This document shows positions 1-5,303 of a DNA stretch of 5,303 bases, in pieces (within the stretch, counting starts at the first letter, position 1; each line of letters opens with the position of its first letter). A program made the translations under genes and the position numbers. The DNA comes from Pseudomonadota bacterium (GTDB taxonomy: Bacteria; Pseudomonadota; Gammaproteobacteria; Burkholderiales; JABEVD01): contig JAJZPK010000160.1 of assembly GCA_021811205.1 (NCBI GenBank), positions 1-5,303 of the forward strand. Direction: 5' to 3'. The notes below the pieces were generated by a model. That model saw only the letters and a program-made list of their open reading frames with translations, had not been told where the DNA came from and ran no database searches.

Positions 1-1846
1 TGATGGTGTAGTCCATGCGCTTTTTCGAGCCGATGTTTCCCGATACGACGAAATCGGTGTTCAGCCCGATGCCGATGTCGACGGGCATCTTGCCTTCCGC
101 ACGGCGCGCTTCGTTCCACGAGAAGAGCGATTTCAGCATTTCGATCGCTGTCCTGACCGCCCTGTCTTCTTCGTCCCCTTTGGCCTCGGGAATGCCGAAA
201 ACGGCCATGATGGCATCCCCGATGAACTTGTCGAGCATTCCGCCTTCGTTCTGGATGCAATCCACCATCAGGGTGAAATATTCGTTGAGCAGGGACACCG
301 TGGCCTGGGCGCCGAGCTGCTCGGTGACCGTCGTGAAGCCGCGTACATCGGAAAAGAGCACGGTGCATTCGACGCTCTGTCCGCCCAGCACTTCTCCGCC
401 CTGAGCTACCACGCGATCGGCAAGCGAGGGGTCCATGTAGCGCGCCATGGTCGATTTCAGGCGCTTTTCCGAACTGATGTCCTCGATCACCAGCATCGAG
501 CCCATGCGCTTTTTTTCGCTGCTCACCAGGGGCTGGACGGTCAGGTTGACGGAAAGCGTTTCGCCTTCGACGTCGATGTTGGCGTCCATGGTCACTTCGG
601 GTTTTTGCGATTCGGCTACCGCCTTGATCTTCTCCGCCACCCAGGCATTCTTTTCCGAGAAGAATTCCCCCACTTCCCTGTTCAGGATGTGGTCCGGAGA
701 AACCTTGAGTATCTCGAGTCCGGCAGAATTGCAGGTGACGATCTTTTCGTTCTCGTCGAGCGTGATGAGGCCGTTCGTCATGTTCTCGAGCATCGCCTCG
801 TTGTAGTTCTTCATGTTGTGGACGTCGGCGAACAGCTTGGCGTTCTCGAGCGCGATCGAAACCTGTGCGGTGAAGGCCTTCAATCTCGCTTCATCCTCTG
901 CAGTGAAAGGGCCGCCGCGCTTGTTGAGCACCTGGGTGACGCCGATGATCTTGCCGCGCTTGTTGACGACGGGCACGCAGAGGATGGAACGGGTGAAAAA
1001 CCCCGTCTTCTTGTCGAAAGCGGGATTGAAGCGCAGGTCGGCATAGGCATGGGGGATGTTGACCGTCTTGCCCGAGGTGAAGACTGCGCCTGCAATGCCG
1101 AGATGGTTGGGAAGCCTGATCTGCATGGCGTCAAGGCCCTGTCCGACTTCCGACCAGAGCTGGTTCGTTTTTTCGTCGTTGAGAAAGAGGGTGGAACGTT
1201 CTGCATTCAGCATGCTGGTCGCTTCCCCCATCACTTTCTGGAGCAGAGAGCCGAGCTGGATGTCGGCCGTGACTTCGGAGACGATGTTGACGAATTCCAT
1301 TTCCTGTTTGCGCAGTTTCTGCATGCGCTCGATGAACTGGGCGCTCAGGAGGGCAAGCGAACACTGGGCAACCATGTCTTCCAGAAGCCCCTTGTCTTCA
1401 TCGTCGAAATGGCCGGTTTTCTTGTTGAGTGTCTGCGCGACGCCGATGATTTCTCCCTTGTGGGAAATGATCGGCACGCAGAGGATGTTTTTCGTGACGA
1501 ACCCGGTCTGTTCATCCACGCTCCTGTTGAAGCGCGGATCCGAATAGGCGTCGAGGATGATCTGGCTCTGCCCTGTAGAGAAGACGTAGCCGGCAATCCC
1601 CGCATTGTTGGTCATGCGGATTTCGCGCAGGAAGTTGCCCTGAGCCACGCGCGAATAGAGTTCGTTCGTCTCCGGATCGTTCAGAAAAAGAGTGCTTCTT
1701 TCCGTGTCGAGCTCGATGGAAGTCGATTCGACCAGGGTGCGCAGCACGTCGTCGAGGGTATCCTGTTCGCCTATCTTCCTGGAAAGTGCGAGCAGCATTT
1801 CGGCGCGCATCAGGCGCTCTTTCTGAGTATGTTTCGGTGCCGTCAT
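1..1846 (-). CDS. Class III adenylate cyclase, GAF-GAF-PAS-cyclase (partial, C-terminus beyond window)
   Basis: Predicted to convert ATP to cAMP in the cytoplasm; no signal peptide or membrane segment is seen. 615 residues are visible. Domains: GAF-1 about 31-170, GAF-2 about 198-337, PAS about 350-460, cyclase from about 490. The two GAF domains share the string ERSTLFLND. GAF-2 has a full NKxnFx3DE motif (N308, K309, F314, D318, E319), the signature of cyclic-nucleotide-binding GAF domains; GAF-1 has N141, K142, F147, D151 but K152 instead of E. In the cyclase domain FSDVRGFT gives metal ligand D500 and DKFIGDAIMAVFG gives D544. K540 and T614 (in MDYTI) are the adenine-selecting pair of bacterial adenylate cyclases, arguing against guanylate cyclase. 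The order matches Anabaena CyaB1. The ATG overlaps the upstream gene's stop (ATGA), so translation is probably coupled; GGAAG lies 4 nt before it. The catalytic Asn/Arg lie beyond the window. Confidence 0.95.
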   Translation of the reverse strand, partial: MTAPKHTQKERLMRAEMLLALSRKIGEQDTLDDVLRTLVESTSIELDTERSTLFLNDPETNELYSRVAQGNFLREIRMTNNAGIAGYVFSTGQSQIILDAYSDPRFNRSVDEQTGFVTKNILCVPIISHKGEIIGVAQTLNKKTGHFDDEDKGLLEDMVAQCSLALLSAQFIERMQKLRKQEMEFVNIVSEVTADIQLGSLLQKVMGEATSMLNAERSTLFLNDEKTNQLWSEVGQGLDAMQIRLPNHLGIAGAVFTSGKTVNIPHAYADLRFNPAFDKKTGFFTRSILCVPVVNKRGKIIGVTQVLNKRGGPFTAEDEARLKAFTAQVSIALENAKLFADVHNMKNYNEAMLENMTNGLITLDENEKIVTCNSAGLEILKVSPDHILNREVGEFFSEKNAWVAEKIKAVAESQKPEVTMDANIDVEGETLSVNLTVQPLVSSEKKRMGSMLVIEDISSEKRLKSTMARYMDPSLADRVVAQGGEVLGGQSVECTVLFSDVRGFTTVTEQLGAQATVSLLNEYFTLMVDCIQNEGGMLDKFIGDAIMAVFGIPEAKGDEEDRAVRTAIEMLKSLFSWNEARRAEGKMPVDIGIGLNTDFVVSGNIGSKKRMDYTI

Positions 1847-2253
1847 TTTTCTTCCAGCCTCTGGCGCAGCAGGACGACGGTTTGCTTCAGTTGTGCGATC
1901 TCGTCCTGCGCGTTCTTTTTTTCCTGGACGACTGCTTTTTCCTGCTCGATTTTCGCCAGTTCAAGGGCGCTTCTCAACGAAACTGCAGTTTCCTTGAGCT
2001 GGTTCATTTCATCATGAAAAAGCGAAGCGGCTTTCTGAATCATGTCCTCCCGATTGGCGCGTTCTTCCTCTAGCTTGTCGCGCAATTCGGTGATCGTCGA
2101 CTTGAGATGCAGGGTTTCCTGGCCATGCTCCGTGTGCACAAGCTGAATCGCATGTTCGTGCTCGATGCCGATCTGTTCCAGCCTGTTGCGCAAGGCGAAT
2201 ACGGTTTGCTGCAGTTGCCTGATCTCGGCTTCCTGAAGCGCATCATTTTCCAA
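1843..2253 (-). CDS. Coiled-coil protein of four 36-residue repeats, upstream partner of the cyclase
   Basis: A 136-aa, highly charged, all-helical protein with no signal peptide and no enzymatic motif; I do not recognise a named family. Motif LKxTVxxLRxRLE recurs with leucines at residues 14, 50, 86 and 122, exactly 36 apart, and flanking positions also repeat (E10/E46/E82/E118; E33/E69/E105; A35/M71/A107). The chosen start is TTG at 2253, because AGGAG lies 8 nt upstream and a promoter-like site sits about 40 nt before that. An in-frame ATG at 2337 would give 164 aa, but it lies upstream of that promoter and its extra residues do not look like a coiled coil. The gene ends in an ATGA overlap with the cyclase gene, so the two are almost certainly co-expressed. 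A role as scaffold, oligomerisation partner or regulator of the cyclase is inference from operon position. Confidence 0.82.
   Translation of the reverse strand: MENDALQEAEIRQLQQTVFALRNRLEQIGIEHEHAIQLVHTEHGQETLHLKSTITELRDKLEEERANREDMIQKAASLFHDEMNQLKETAVSLRSALELAKIEQEKAVVQEKKNAQDEIAQLKQTVVLLRQRLEEK
1846..2226 (-). repeat. Four tandem 36-aa (108-bp) protein-level repeats
   Basis: Units are residues 10-45, 46-81, 82-117 and 118-136 of the coiled-coil protein (the last is cut after 19 residues). Each opens with E-x3-L-K/Q-x-T and continues to LRx(R/K/A)LE. The DNA copies have diverged, so the repeat is clear in protein and weak in nucleotides. Thirty-six residues equal ten turns of an ideal alpha-helix. 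Confidence 0.75.
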
Positions 2254-2261
2254 TCTAGAGG

Positions 2262-2266
2262 CTCCT
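2262..2266 (-). promoter_or_regulatory. Shine-Dalgarno AGGAG deciding a TTG start
   Basis: Read on the minus strand, AGGAG is followed by 8 nt and then TTG (2253-2251). No comparable site precedes the in-frame ATG at 2337, so TTG is preferred as the start of the coiled-coil gene. Confidence 0.7.
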
Positions 2267-2300
2267 GTGCGGCCGCTCTTAAGAATGTTCCCCCGCCCTG

Positions 2301-2329
2301 ATTCTAAGGTACATCGATTTTGCCCACAA
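2301..2329 (-). promoter_or_regulatory. Sigma70-like promoter of the coiled-coil/cyclase operon
   Basis: Minus strand: -35 TTGTGG (2329-2324), 17-bp spacer, -10 TAGAAT (2306-2301, 5 of 6 consensus bases). The start of transcription would be near 2294, giving a leader of about 40 nt that contains the AGGAG site. Predicted by eye only. Confidence 0.55.
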
Positions 2330-2336
2330 GAGGCCA

Positions 2337-2365
2337 TTGCATAGCATGTCGCGCCTGCCTAGAAT
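2337..2365 (+). promoter_or_regulatory. Sigma70-like promoter of the cNMP-binding gene, possibly leaderless
   Basis: Plus strand: -35 TTGCAT (2337-2342), 17-bp spacer, -10 TAGAAT (2360-2365). The -10 is identical to that of the divergent promoter, and the two -35 boxes are only 7 bp apart. The ATG at 2373 begins 8 nt after the -10, where transcription itself should begin, so the mRNA may carry no leader. This fits the lack of a Shine-Dalgarno site there. The -35 is weak. Confidence 0.5.
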
Positions 2366-2372
2366 ACGTCTT

Positions 2373-2855
2373 ATGAAAGAATCCGTGGCGATCAATAATA
2401 TCAGGGATATGCTGCTCGAATGCGAATTGTTTTCCAGCTTCGACAGGCTGGAGATGGGCTCGATCGCATCCTACTTCAATTACATCGAAATCGAGAAGGG
2501 CGATGTGGTGTTCAAGGAAGGCGATCCAGGCACGTTCATGTGCATCGTTCATACCGGAACGGTATCCATTTCGAAGAGCGATCTTGAGGGGCGCGTTTAC
2601 GAGATAGCCAAGCTGCAGCCTGGGCGACCTTTCGGGGAAATGGCGCTGCTCGATGGCGAGAGAAGAAGCGCGACATGCCAGGCTGTGGAGAAATGCAGCC
2701 TGCTGACCCTGTCCAAGGATGCGCTCGACTTGATGATAGAGGATGCGCCTTCGATGGCCGCGAAAGTGGTGCGTACCGTCGCTGTTTCGCTCTCGAGGAG
2801 GCTGCGCATGGCGGACGGCCAGCTGGTAGACAGAAGAAGCCGCAACGCCTACTGA
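2373..2855 (+). CDS. Stand-alone cyclic nucleotide-binding domain protein
   Basis: A 160-aa cytoplasmic protein consisting of one CNB (Crp/PKA-regulatory-type) beta-roll domain, about residues 8-125, plus a C-terminal helix. The phosphate-binding cassette is intact: G84, F87-G88-E89, A91-L92-L93, R97-R98-S99-A100-T101; E89 and R98 are the usual contacts to ribose and cyclic phosphate. Crp-family regulators are about 200-230 aa with a C-terminal helix-turn-helix; here the chain ends at about the point where that domain would begin, so it is not a normal transcription factor. It is divergent from an adenylate cyclase gene and probably acts as a cAMP receptor through protein contacts (inference). 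The start is uncertain: ATG 2373 fits a leaderless transcript, while ATG 2346 (9 residues longer) has GAGG 12 nt upstream. The secreted-protein gene follows after 8 nt. Confidence 0.88.
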   Translation: MKESVAINNIRDMLLECELFSSFDRLEMGSIASYFNYIEIEKGDVVFKEGDPGTFMCIVHTGTVSISKSDLEGRVYEIAKLQPGRPFGEMALLDGERRSATCQAVEKCSLLTLSKDALDLMIEDAPSMAAKVVRTVAVSLSRRLRMADGQLVDRRSRNAY

Positions 2856-2863
2856 TCGGTCTC

Positions 2864-3712
2864 ATGCTGAATGTGTGGACGATAATATGCTTTTGTCTGG
2901 CTGTTCTGCTTTCGGCCAATCAGGCGCTTGCGAACGAAGATATCCCGCAATATGTCAGGTATAGAGCTCAGCAAGACCTGAACGGCGAATGCCTCAAACT
3001 GTTTCTTGATAGAGGATACTGGTATCGACCCGGTTATCAGGCCCCTCATATCCCAAGCCGGGTAGGCGTATTTGCCGTAGGCGAGTTCCATTCAAAATTC
3101 TATTGCGCCTGGGCGCGGAAATCGCTCTTTGGCTCGATAGGCGATGCGCAAAAGAAGGCCATTTGGGATTGCGAAGCGGTTCGCGCACCTGGGGGCACAC
3201 CCTGCGAAATATATGCTTACGACAACCGCATCGTATACAAGAACAATCACGACAAGCTCGATTATGCGATGAAGCTCCTGGATTCTGGGGATGTTTCAGC
3301 GTCAGGGCATCTGATGGCCTTTGTGGATGTCGGGAGCCTGTCGCCGGGTGACAAGGGGCGATACTATTATCTGTCCGGGATGCTTCAATACGATCCGGAA
3401 AGGGTGGGGAACAAGGCGGGGCTTTCTGACGTGATACGCGATTTCCATCGCGCATGGTTTTCGTACGGGAACTTGGACGCTGCAGTGGAGGAAGGTAATT
3501 TGCTACTGTCTAAGGGATTGATAGACAAAGATGGCCAGTACATACGCGATGCCTGGCTATATTTTCTCAAACACGCCACTGACGAGCAAAAGCGGTTGTA
3601 TCCAGAAGTTGAGCAAGACCTGAAAGTGATCGAACTTTCTGATCAGGCCGGGTTGGCAGGGAGGGCGAAGGCGTCGCCCTCAGCCAGGCATGCTGGAAAG
3701 CCTGTTCACTAG
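2864..3712 (+). CDS. Exported cysteine-containing protein of unknown function
   Basis: 282 aa. Residues 1-23 form a Sec signal peptide: hydrophobic core about 4-18 and an ALA cleavage motif before N24. The n-region has no basic residue, which is unusual. The mature part has four cysteines (43, 81, 103, 114), compatible with periplasmic disulfides. The stretch 81-126, with Ala-rich helix, WDCEA, then TPCEIYAYDNRIVYK, loosely resembles modules of the DUF4189 type, where a helix with Cys is followed by G-x-x-C-x-x-Y/V-A; this is a resemblance only. Residues from about 130 to 260 are helical and TPR/Sel1-like in feel. The gene starts 8 nt after the cNMP-binding gene with no clear Shine-Dalgarno site, so it probably depends on that gene's transcript and translation. 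Upstream in-frame ATGs lie inside the preceding gene and would bury the signal peptide. Function unknown. Confidence 0.85.
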   Translation: MLNVWTIICFCLAVLLSANQALANEDIPQYVRYRAQQDLNGECLKLFLDRGYWYRPGYQAPHIPSRVGVFAVGEFHSKFYCAWARKSLFGSIGDAQKKAIWDCEAVRAPGGTPCEIYAYDNRIVYKNNHDKLDYAMKLLDSGDVSASGHLMAFVDVGSLSPGDKGRYYYLSGMLQYDPERVGNKAGLSDVIRDFHRAWFSYGNLDAAVEEGNLLLSKGLIDKDGQYIRDAWLYFLKHATDEQKRLYPEVEQDLKVIELSDQAGLAGRAKASPSARHAGKPVH

Positions 3713-3720
3713 GCTTTCTT
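3696..3720. terminator. Hairpin between convergent genes, candidate bidirectional terminator
   Basis: GAAAGCCT (3696-3703) pairs perfectly with AGGCTTTC (3711-3718) around a 7-nt loop. The stem covers the ends of both convergent genes, and both stop codons touch the loop or the base next to it. T-richness after the stem is modest (TT, then CTTTCC), so intrinsic termination is plausible but not strong. Confidence 0.42.
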
Positions 3721-3870
3721 GCCCTTTCCGTGAACCTGCGTTCGATTCCCTCCCTGCAGTTCTGCGGAAATCCGCTCGTGCACGGTTTTCCTTGAACCCG
3801 ATGTTTCTTCAACCACTTTCAGAATCCGCCTGAGACAGTCCGGATGCCTGTCGTCGATGATTTCGTTCAT
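3709..3870 (-). CDS. Small hypothetical protein (53 aa)
   Basis: The ORF starts at ATG 3870 and ends with TAG (CTA at 3709-3711). A purine-rich Shine-Dalgarno stretch, AAGGGAAGGG (3887-3878 on the minus strand), lies 7 nt upstream of the ATG, and a good promoter candidate lies at 3958-3986. The N-terminal half is acidic to mixed (MNEIIDDRHPDC) and probably helical; the C-terminal end is basic (HGKGKKA). No signal peptide, membrane span or known domain is recognisable. Its stop overlaps that of the exported-protein gene within one CTAG, an arrangement expected between two real convergent genes. Whether it is translated cannot be settled here; the ribosome site is the best argument for it. Confidence 0.6.
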   Translation of the reverse strand: MNEIIDDRHPDCLRRILKVVEETSGSRKTVHERISAELQGGNRTQVHGKGKKA

Positions 3871-4563: not shown

Positions 4564-4830
4564 CTACAATTGTTTCCCATAAGGCAACATGTGGTTTGAC
4601 GACGTTATCGCCCTGAGGCGTTCAATTACAATAGGCACCCTGGCCTGACTTCCCGGGTCGCCAGGCATGTGTCCCGGCAAAGCTTCGAGAAATCTGTCAT
4701 CCCTCAGCAAATCAGCCAAACGCTGCCCGAGATGATCTTTCAGTTTTTCATCGCACTGCCTGACTTCTTCCACGATTTCAGGCCTGCCATCGAGAACTGC
4801 CACGATGTCTTCCATGTCATGACTCATCAT
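4564..4830 (-). CDS. Small orphan protein (88 aa) divergent from an antitoxin gene
   Basis: The protein has no signal peptide or membrane span. Residues about 7-50 are acidic and helical; the part from 47 to 73 has the look of a conserved motif, FLEALPGHMPGD followed by SQARVPIVIERL. I have no firm family name for it. The chosen start is ATG 4830, preceded on the minus strand by AAGG at 7 nt. An in-frame ATG at 4911 would add 27 residues rich in aromatic and basic residues that look non-coding. The gene is divergent from the antitoxin gene at 5035 across a 204-bp interval. No clear promoter was found for it. A part in the toxin-antitoxin locus is possible but unsupported beyond proximity. Confidence 0.68.
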   Translation of the reverse strand: MMSHDMEDIVAVLDGRPEIVEEVRQCDEKLKDHLGQRLADLLRDDRFLEALPGHMPGDPGSQARVPIVIERLRAITSSNHMLPYGKQL

Positions 4831-4924
4831 GTAGTCGCCTTTTCCCCTGAAGACAAAGCGCCAGATCGAGAATGGGTAAAAAATCATTCCCTGAAAGCAC
4901 TCATTCTTCATGTCATTTCTTTTG

Positions 4925-5034: not shown

Positions 5035-5303
5035 ATGAAGATGCAAACGGTAGCCGCTTTGCCGTCTGAAGAAGAAGCGGAACTGGCGAAGGAAAGCAGC
5101 AGGGCGTTGTCACTGCACATGAAAAGCCGTGACGAGACGCAGGAAATCTGCATAGTCGACGACAAGGGAGAGCATGAGGCAGTCAAGGTTCCGGCCGCAG
5201 CCATGCGCATGCTGTTGGATATCCTGGCGGAAATGGCACAGGGCAACGCGGTGAGCCTGATTCCTGTTCATGCCGAGCTGACCACTCAGGAGGCAGCCGA
5301 TTT
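5035..5303 (+). CDS. Excisionase-family antitoxin of a type II toxin-antitoxin system (partial)
   Basis: 89 residues are visible and the gene continues past the window end. AAGGAG lies 7 nt before the ATG. Residues 36-80 carry the pattern of this antitoxin family: a short beta part (EICIVDDKGEHEAVKVP), then a helix (AAMRMLLDILAEMAQGN) and SLIPVHAELTTQEAADF. The LTTQEAAD segment is the start of a MerR/excisionase-type helix-turn-helix, normally continuing with LNVSRP and a recognition helix. Proteins of this kind bind their own promoter and neutralise a toxin, often a PIN-domain ribonuclease encoded just downstream; that gene would lie outside the window. The 13-bp direct repeats and the inverted repeat upstream fit autoregulation. 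ATG 5035 is preferred to ATG 5041 on spacing. Confidence 0.82.
   Translation, partial: MKMQTVAALPSEEEAELAKESSRALSLHMKSRDETQEICIVDDKGEHEAVKVPAAAMRMLLDILAEMAQGNAVSLIPVHAELTTQEAAD

Follow-up and report, generated by a model that had tools for sequence, protein, structure and literature searches.

In bacteria, cyclic AMP (cAMP) is usually regarded as a cell-wide signal that is read by Crp. We analyzed a stretch of 5,303 nucleotides from a Pseudomonadota bacterium (contig JAJZPK010000160.1; the whole stretch is called the window in the following), on which genes for a class III adenylate cyclase and a repeat coiled-coil protein lie divergently to genes for a lone cyclic-nucleotide-binding (CNB) domain protein and a putative exported protein. 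Among the described systems, the cyclase resembles CyaB1 and CyaB2 of Anabaena, in which a tandem GAF is likewise followed by a PAS and a cyclase domain; most of the cAMP contacts of the second GAF domain (GAF-B) and the NKFDE motif are shared as well. It differs from them by the coupled upstream gene, which encodes a coiled coil of 36-residue repeats, and by a Thr or Ser replacing Asn359 of GAF-B. The reference structure 1ykd is the tandem GAF of Anabaena CyaB2 (PMC4411481).

A described counterpart of the lone CNB protein is Mfla_1926 of Methylobacillus flagellatus (3gyd), a stand-alone CNB protein of similar length and 28% identity. Pseudomonas CbpA (PA4704) is described as a polar protein with two CNB domains, one of them degenerate. 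The window protein has a single CNB domain. Assemblies of the PKA-R/AKAP type, mentioned here as an analogy without any claim of relationship, share the idea of a scaffold that joins a cAMP source and a receptor, a role that the coiled coil may play in our system. According to PMC11139211, CbpA acts as an effector of cAMP in addition to Vfr, the homologue of Crp.

The window contains four genes, whose orientations, determined by open reading frames and a Pfam scan, agree with an initial annotation made from the sequence alone, in which an operon of coiled-coil and cyclase genes diverged from a CNB gene followed by a gene for an exported protein. The features of the cAMP-related genes are:

2..1846, minus strand: adenylate cyclase of class III with the domain order GAF-GAF-PAS-cyclase, truncated C-terminally at the window edge (Pfam, match to 1ykd, alignment of 32 cyclases)
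11..370, minus strand: cyclase homology domain, residues 493-612, with D500, K540, D544 and D612
848..1255, minus strand: GAF-B, residues 198-333, with R217, T219, V234, D278 and the full NKFDE motif (N308, K309, F314, D318, E319); predicted cAMP pocket
1349..1762, minus strand: GAF-A, residues 29-166, with R50, T52 and D111; E of NKFDE not present
1843..1846, minus strand: ATGA, overlap of the coiled-coil stop and the cyclase start by 4 bases (sequence)
1843..2253, minus strand: repeat coiled-coil protein, 136 amino acids, starting with TTG; its four 36-residue units begin at 2229, 2121, 2013 and 1905, and the stop truncates the fourth
2373..2855, plus strand: lone CNB domain protein, 160 amino acids (169 if started at 2346), PF00027 with 5.6e-23

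The conserved core of the locus is the pair formed by the tandem-GAF/PAS class III cyclase gene and the coiled-coil gene overlapping it. In each of 58 genomes with a coiled-coil match (58/58) the cyclase gene adjoins the coiled-coil gene. These genomes were pooled from a class sample (10 of 369), an order sample (24 of 399) and a phylum sample (26 of 398), with genome G001 common to all three; nine of them supplied rows of the alignment used for the coiled-coil search and 49 did not. The ten genomes of the class sample comprise nine bearing the cyclase and G391, in which just 33 residues of the cyclase are encoded before the contig breaks off. In the reverse test on the same sample, the cyclase was found at E <= 1e-120 in 12 of 369 genomes, and a coiled-coil gene was located directly upstream in all nine genomes whose cyclase is at least 55% identical and in none of the three at 45-50%. 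A similar picture emerged from 100 relatives of G001: eight possess the cyclase at E <= 1e-40, six of them (at least 64% identity) with the coiled coil and two (45%) without such an upstream gene. In a FastTree phylogeny the 32 cyclases linked to a coiled coil constitute one clade (support 0.90), outside of which the seven unlinked ones are placed, two of these being of partial length only. In 13 of 33 genomes, the coiled-coil stop and the start codon closest to it, which need not be the true start, share 4 bases as in the window, and in genome G797 the repeats and the cyclase are encoded by a single frame of 903 amino acids. Thus, the coupling of the two genes proposed in the initial annotation proved to be that of a true unit. 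Two genomes bearing the pair also harbor a second related cyclase that falls outside the coiled-coil-linked clade (G066:C22, L096; G017:C32, L097).

The coiled-coil protein consists of repeated units, each precisely 36 residues long, with the consensus EIxQLKxTIxALRDxLE. Its gene probably starts at TTG 2253, located behind AGGAG, rather than at ATG 2337, because the sequence upstream of 2253 is poorly conserved in G011, the nearest genome. In 15 coiled-coil proteins the mean BLOSUM62 self-similarity at a shift of 36 residues was 1.23, compared to -0.43 (standard deviation 0.05) in shuffled sequences, and among shifts of 5-74 only that of 72 rivals it. Arg occupies position 14 in 61 of the 62 units aligned. 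In the 33 genomes of the class and order samples, which were analyzed first, 115 of 119 gaps between units measure 36 residues and this Arg is found in 150 of 152 units; the respective numbers for the 25 genomes of the phylum sample are 121 of 127 and again 150 of 152. Most of the deviating gaps are due to additional weak matches (such as 18+18, 29+7 or 25+11), and one of 38 residues resides in the G797 fusion. Not counting weak additional matches, the proteins contain 3-12 units. No Pfam family matched the 164-amino-acid form above its cut-off (best, Ax_dynein_light with 22.3 bits, cut-off 26.4), no NCBIfam family matched the 136-amino-acid form, the PDB search yielded no match, and a protein search disclosed three relatives among 140 candidates. 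A literature search covering titles and the beginnings of abstracts, with most subscription papers outside its reach, revealed a description neither of the coiled coil nor of the gene pair. The idea that the unit mimics a helix of the cyclase was abandoned: a position-specific score derived from the 62 units reached at best 5 bits on the window cyclase, the only one scanned, compared to a median of 41 for true units.

The consistent pairing suggests that the coiled coil likely binds the cyclase directly. Each 36-residue unit could then provide one docking or packing surface, by which cyclase dimers would be held or clustered; tentatively, and with a little less than even confidence, we regard the units as repeated docking sites. 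The most detailed version of this model, doubtful as a whole, envisages the coiled coil as a ruler with one unit (ten helical turns, approximately 5 nm) per cyclase dimer, which would array self-activating cyclases as a local source of cAMP, to which each lineage would connect a receptor of its own kind (lone CNB, double CNB, Crp-type, kinase-CNB or hydrolase-CNB), so that one core might serve different outputs. The coiled coil may instead be a regulator of the cyclase, i.e., an inhibitor, a sensor or a localisation factor, whose repeats merely set length or stability. Gene pairing, coupling and fusion are compatible with any direct partner of the cyclase, and the raw unit count is simply four in 19 of 33 genomes; nevertheless, the strict 36-residue spacing, the near-invariant Arg outside the hydrophobic core and the range of 3-12 units agree better with a series of binding sites than with a simple rod. 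We consider a purely regulatory role possible, with prospects clearly below even.

The cyclase comprises 615 amino acids within the window, with GAF domains at residues 29-166 and 198-333, a PAS domain at 350-457 and the cyclase domain at 493-612 (Pfam E-values: GAF 9.3e-38, PAS 3.9e-14, Guanylate_cyc 3.8e-16); a relative with 97% identity has an open frame of 790 amino acids. Its best PDB match is the tandem GAF 1ykd (1.7e-42). We take D500 and D544 to be the metal-binding Asp pair and Lys540 and Asp612 to be the residues contacting adenine, the transition-state Asn and Arg falling beyond the window edge. The Asn/Arg pattern was detected in the loci of 28 of 33 relatives, the other five being cut or unmatched. 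In an alignment of 32 cyclases (that of the window and 31 from the first 33 genomes; the cut cyclases of G145 and G391 and those of the 25 phylum-sample genomes were left out here and in the tree), the metal Asp pair and the adenine Lys are present in all sequences and the adenine Asp in 31.

According to PMC4411481, cAMP is contacted in GAF-B of CyaB2 by Arg, Thr, Asp, Ile and Asn. We placed the numbers of these contacts on 1ykd by hand, using the alignment of the window cyclase with 1ykd. Of these contacts, Arg, Thr and Asp are identical in GAF-B of the window, Ile is replaced by Val and Asn359 by Thr. The Arg, Thr and Asp as well as N, F, D and E of the NKFDE motif occur in all 32 cyclases and the K in 31, the Asn359 position being Thr in 27 and Ser in five. 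GAF-A retains the Asp in all 32 sequences and the Arg in 31, and has not kept the E of NKFDE. Hence, the enzyme shares with CyaB1 and CyaB2 the order GAF-GAF-PAS-cyclase, the catalytic residues of adenylate type and the GAF-B cAMP pocket, with Thr at the Asn359 position, and it is probably an active, cAMP-responsive adenylate cyclase. Since the pocket is retained, self-activation of the cyclase is fairly likely: its product would bind to GAF-B, perhaps also to GAF-A, and raise the activity as in CyaB2 of Anabaena. Alternatively, the ligand of the GAF domains might be cGMP or a small molecule and not the product of the enzyme. The replacement of Asn359 in all 32 GAF-B domains and the lack of E in GAF-A would agree with this, as would the good matches of the window tandem GAF to the cGMP-binding GAF domains of PDE5 and PDE2. 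As the cAMP-binding tandem GAF of a cyclase is the best PDB match, and Arg, Thr, Asp and the NKFDE motif are retained in 31-32 of the 32 sequences, we deem another ligand unlikely.

In some genomes a CNB gene stands next to the conserved pair. The flanks of the pair were scanned in the 58 genomes with a home-built CNB profile, which divergent CNB genes may escape and which covered less than 1.5 kb on 17 sides ending at contig borders. CNB matches were obtained in 11 of 58 genomes, and in nine of them the CNB frame lies at most 332 bp from the pair. Six arrangements were encountered. The first one is the lone, divergently oriented CNB gene of the window and G011. G259 has a Crp-type gene, with CNB and helix-turn-helix (HTH) domains, upstream of the pair and in the same orientation. 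G194 harbors a divergent gene for a fusion of a Ser/Thr kinase with a C-terminal CNB domain (L246:3789-5213), which may constitute a bacterial cAMP-controlled kinase. In G870 (L273:4627-5583) and G843 (L284:3033-3977) an upstream gene for a double-CNB protein abuts the coiled-coil gene; the two proteins are 37% identical to each other and contain no other Pfam domain. A lone CNB of another subfamily is encoded downstream of the cyclase in G803 (L270:1058-1657), G809 (L274:6822-7370) and G954 (L272:6822-7139, cut by the contig end), the former two being 31% and 28% identical to the window CNB, respectively. In G868, finally, the divergent gene encodes a metallo-hydrolase-like protein of 889 amino acids with two CNB domains (L282:994-3660); the protein has a metallo-beta-lactamase-like domain, and its similarity to Apyc1 is below the cut-off. 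A further divergent gene, in G464 (L251), appeared metallo-hydrolase-like by eye and may encode a phosphodiesterase.

A CNB gene is thus the immediate neighbor of the pair in nine of 58 genomes, while 0.75 would be expected within 1.5 kb, as calculated from the CNB density of the genomes (counts of domain matches, rounded genome sizes). The Poisson probability is 1.3e-4 if the six arrangements are counted, which we judge to be six separate events, and 1.1e-7 for nine. The hypothesis originated with the first 33 genomes, and the 25 fetched afterwards provide a fresher test. The former showed a CNB neighbor in three of 33 genomes (0.33 expected), a modest excess that was also seen within approximately 2 kb (three against 0.47, chance 0.012) and in wider flanks (five, with 1.35 expected; chance likewise 0.012). 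The latter gave six of 25 in three arrangements at an expectation of 0.42, corresponding to Poisson values of 0.009 for three and 5e-6 for six. These data support the notion that the local coupling of cAMP production to a receptor is a recurrent and exchangeable arrangement. The initial annotation had proposed that production and reception of cAMP are wired together locally; this idea gains from the recurrent neighbors, whereas the exact set of four genes on which it had been based is not conserved.

The window CNB gene probably begins with ATG 2373, which we preferred over ATG 2346 because the former is kept in G011 and the latter is not. The motifs GEMA and LDGERRSA of the phosphate-binding cassette are invariant in 28 sequences. 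The AlphaFold2 model has a mean predicted local distance difference test (pLDDT) score of 77.6, with values below 50 in a part of the cassette (residues 99-106) and over the tail (153-169). Foldseek gave 2pqq and 3gyd as top matches, in this order, the latter being also matched by the sequence profile. The protein consequently combines a canonical cassette, as the initial annotation had stated and as alignment and PF00027 confirmed, with a CNB fold whose model confidence is low inside the cassette. PF00027 is its sole Pfam domain, and a C-terminal HTH of the Crp/Fnr type was not found in it. A search disclosed 813 relatives at E <= 1e-3. Assignment of the Pseudomonas relatives to CbpA was rejected on gene context alone: three loci (L009, L010, L020) have a different context, with neighbors that by eye we take to be an oligopeptidase and an HNH protein. 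Seven Pseudomonas CNB loci gave no Rfam match at the gathering score, and hence no prrF.

With slightly better than even confidence, we assume that the window CNB reads the cAMP made by the adjacent cyclase. Transcribed divergently from the 119-bp intergenic region, it would sense the locally produced nucleotide and might pass the signal on by contact of its conserved C-terminal tail with some target. Alternatively, only the pair of coiled coil and cyclase is a functional unit, and the window CNB is a chance neighbor that serves whole-cell cAMP signaling. This type of CNB adjoins the pair in a single other genome, G011. In G001 it is encoded on a different contig from the pair, with no cyclase within 10 kb, and G014, G040 and G086 possess it without this cyclase (E <= 1e-40). 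Out of the 100 relatives of G001, six have a close cyclase (at least 64%) and five a close CNB (at least 50%); both occur in two and are adjacent in one (G011). Each genome, moreover, contains several CNB genes and cyclases, and the CNB diverges faster than the pair: between the window and G011, the non-synonymous and synonymous substitution rates (dN/dS pairs) were 0.014/0.354 for the cyclase, 0.048/0.287 for the coiled coil and 0.159/0.842 for the CNB. The six arrangements beside the pair against an expectation of 0.75, three of them on the strand of the pair, speak against mere chance, as does the retention of the divergent layout in G011. Taken together, we find a chance neighborhood somewhat unlikely.

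We rather favor, as the probable reading, a core of two genes that produces cAMP and to which a receptor is added as a plug-in. Several observations weigh against it. The excess of CNB genes was measured against CNB density only. Forty-nine of the 58 genomes lack a CNB gene adjoining the pair; in two of them one is found farther off (G482, 2.2 kb; G017, 6.6 kb). The genes flanking the pair are otherwise variable. The CNB subfamily of the window has no such cyclase nearby in the loci seen. Its dS of 0.84 is more than twice the values of the cyclase (0.35) and the coiled coil (0.29), and therefore the CNB gene seems to have a separate history, be it an allele replacement or another one. The G797 fusion is a single instance, and the repeat motif is unlike the window cyclase, as the low score mentioned above indicates. 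Finally, the GAF pocket residues are largely retained in seven cyclases without coiled coil too (the E in three of seven), so that they are uninformative about the partner.

The remaining features of the locus are:

2254..2372: divergent intergenic region, 119 bp (alignment with G011)
TTGCAT(2337)-17-TAGAAT(2360), plus strand: candidate promoter (G011 alignment), weak, missed by the consensus scan
TTGTGG(2329)-17-TAGAAT(2306), minus strand: candidate promoter (G011 alignment), weak, missed by the consensus scan
2864..3712, plus strand: putative exported protein, family unassigned, N-terminus hydrophobic by eye, likely start 8 bp after the CNB stop

The starts at TTG 2253 and ATG 2373 leave a gap of 119 bp, which makes a promoter region common to both divergent gene sets plausible, as had been suggested initially. 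The back-to-back TTG-17-TAGAAT patterns are retained in G011, where the minus-strand -35 sequence TTGTGG reads TTGTGA and where the CNB gene is likewise divergent from the pair; a consensus promoter scan of the window, though, did not flag the candidate -35/-10 pairs. RNA elements in the window were rejected, as only two matches were obtained, both below the gathering score. Beyond the four genes, two small genes without family are located on the minus strand at 3710-3870 and 4564-4911, having counterparts beyond the CNB gene of G011 with 76% (42 amino acids) and 85% (93 amino acids) identity, respectively. A small acidic protein encoded on the plus strand at 5035-5303 runs off the window; it appeared antitoxin- or regulator-like by eye and gave no Pfam match.

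The exported gene starts 8 bp behind the CNB stop and is therefore probably co-transcribed with the CNB gene. This proximity is what favors the proposal of the initial annotation that the module may report to the envelope, with the exported protein as its output. In G011, however, the gene is missing while the rest is retained: approximately 40 bp separate the CNB gene from the next gene there, compared to approximately 900 bp in the window (BLAST edges). Among 633 scored candidates the protein has one relative besides itself (P0122, 78% identical), and no counterpart was seen in 80 CNB loci or 40 scanned cyclase loci. On these grounds we dropped the exported gene as a part of the system, and with it the envelope proposal, which appears highly improbable. 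We judge the gene to be a lineage-specific passenger; loss in G011 could also account for its absence there. No Pfam family above the cut-off and no NCBIfam family matched the protein, whose structure prediction from a two-row alignment reached a pLDDT of 46.8. The combination of four genes as one system did not hold either, with the exported gene absent from G011, the CNB gene on another contig in G001, and neither cyclase, coiled coil nor exported gene in any of the 80 CNB loci fetched from genomes (flanks of up to 10 kb). The initial annotation had named as a refutation that the genes are never neighbors in related genomes; this holds for the exported gene but for none of the three others.

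It had also assumed that the module works without a Crp-type regulator. This is true at the locus, but G011 encodes a CNB-HTH protein with a canonical cassette elsewhere. In total, G011 gave 11 matches to the CNB domain and five, including a marginal one, to class III cyclases; a model of the E. coli CRP reached its cut-off in none of seven genomes. Judging from G011, the locus would be one of several cAMP circuits that coexist in the cell.

With a cyclase clade that is paired with the coiled coil in every genome checked and with a receptor recurring next door, this system may represent compartmented cAMP signaling in bacteria. Owing to the regular repeat, the idea of a compartment would be easily testable by altering the number of units. 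Furthermore, our data draw attention to a protein family that apparently has not been described and to several types of receptors that may be searched for.

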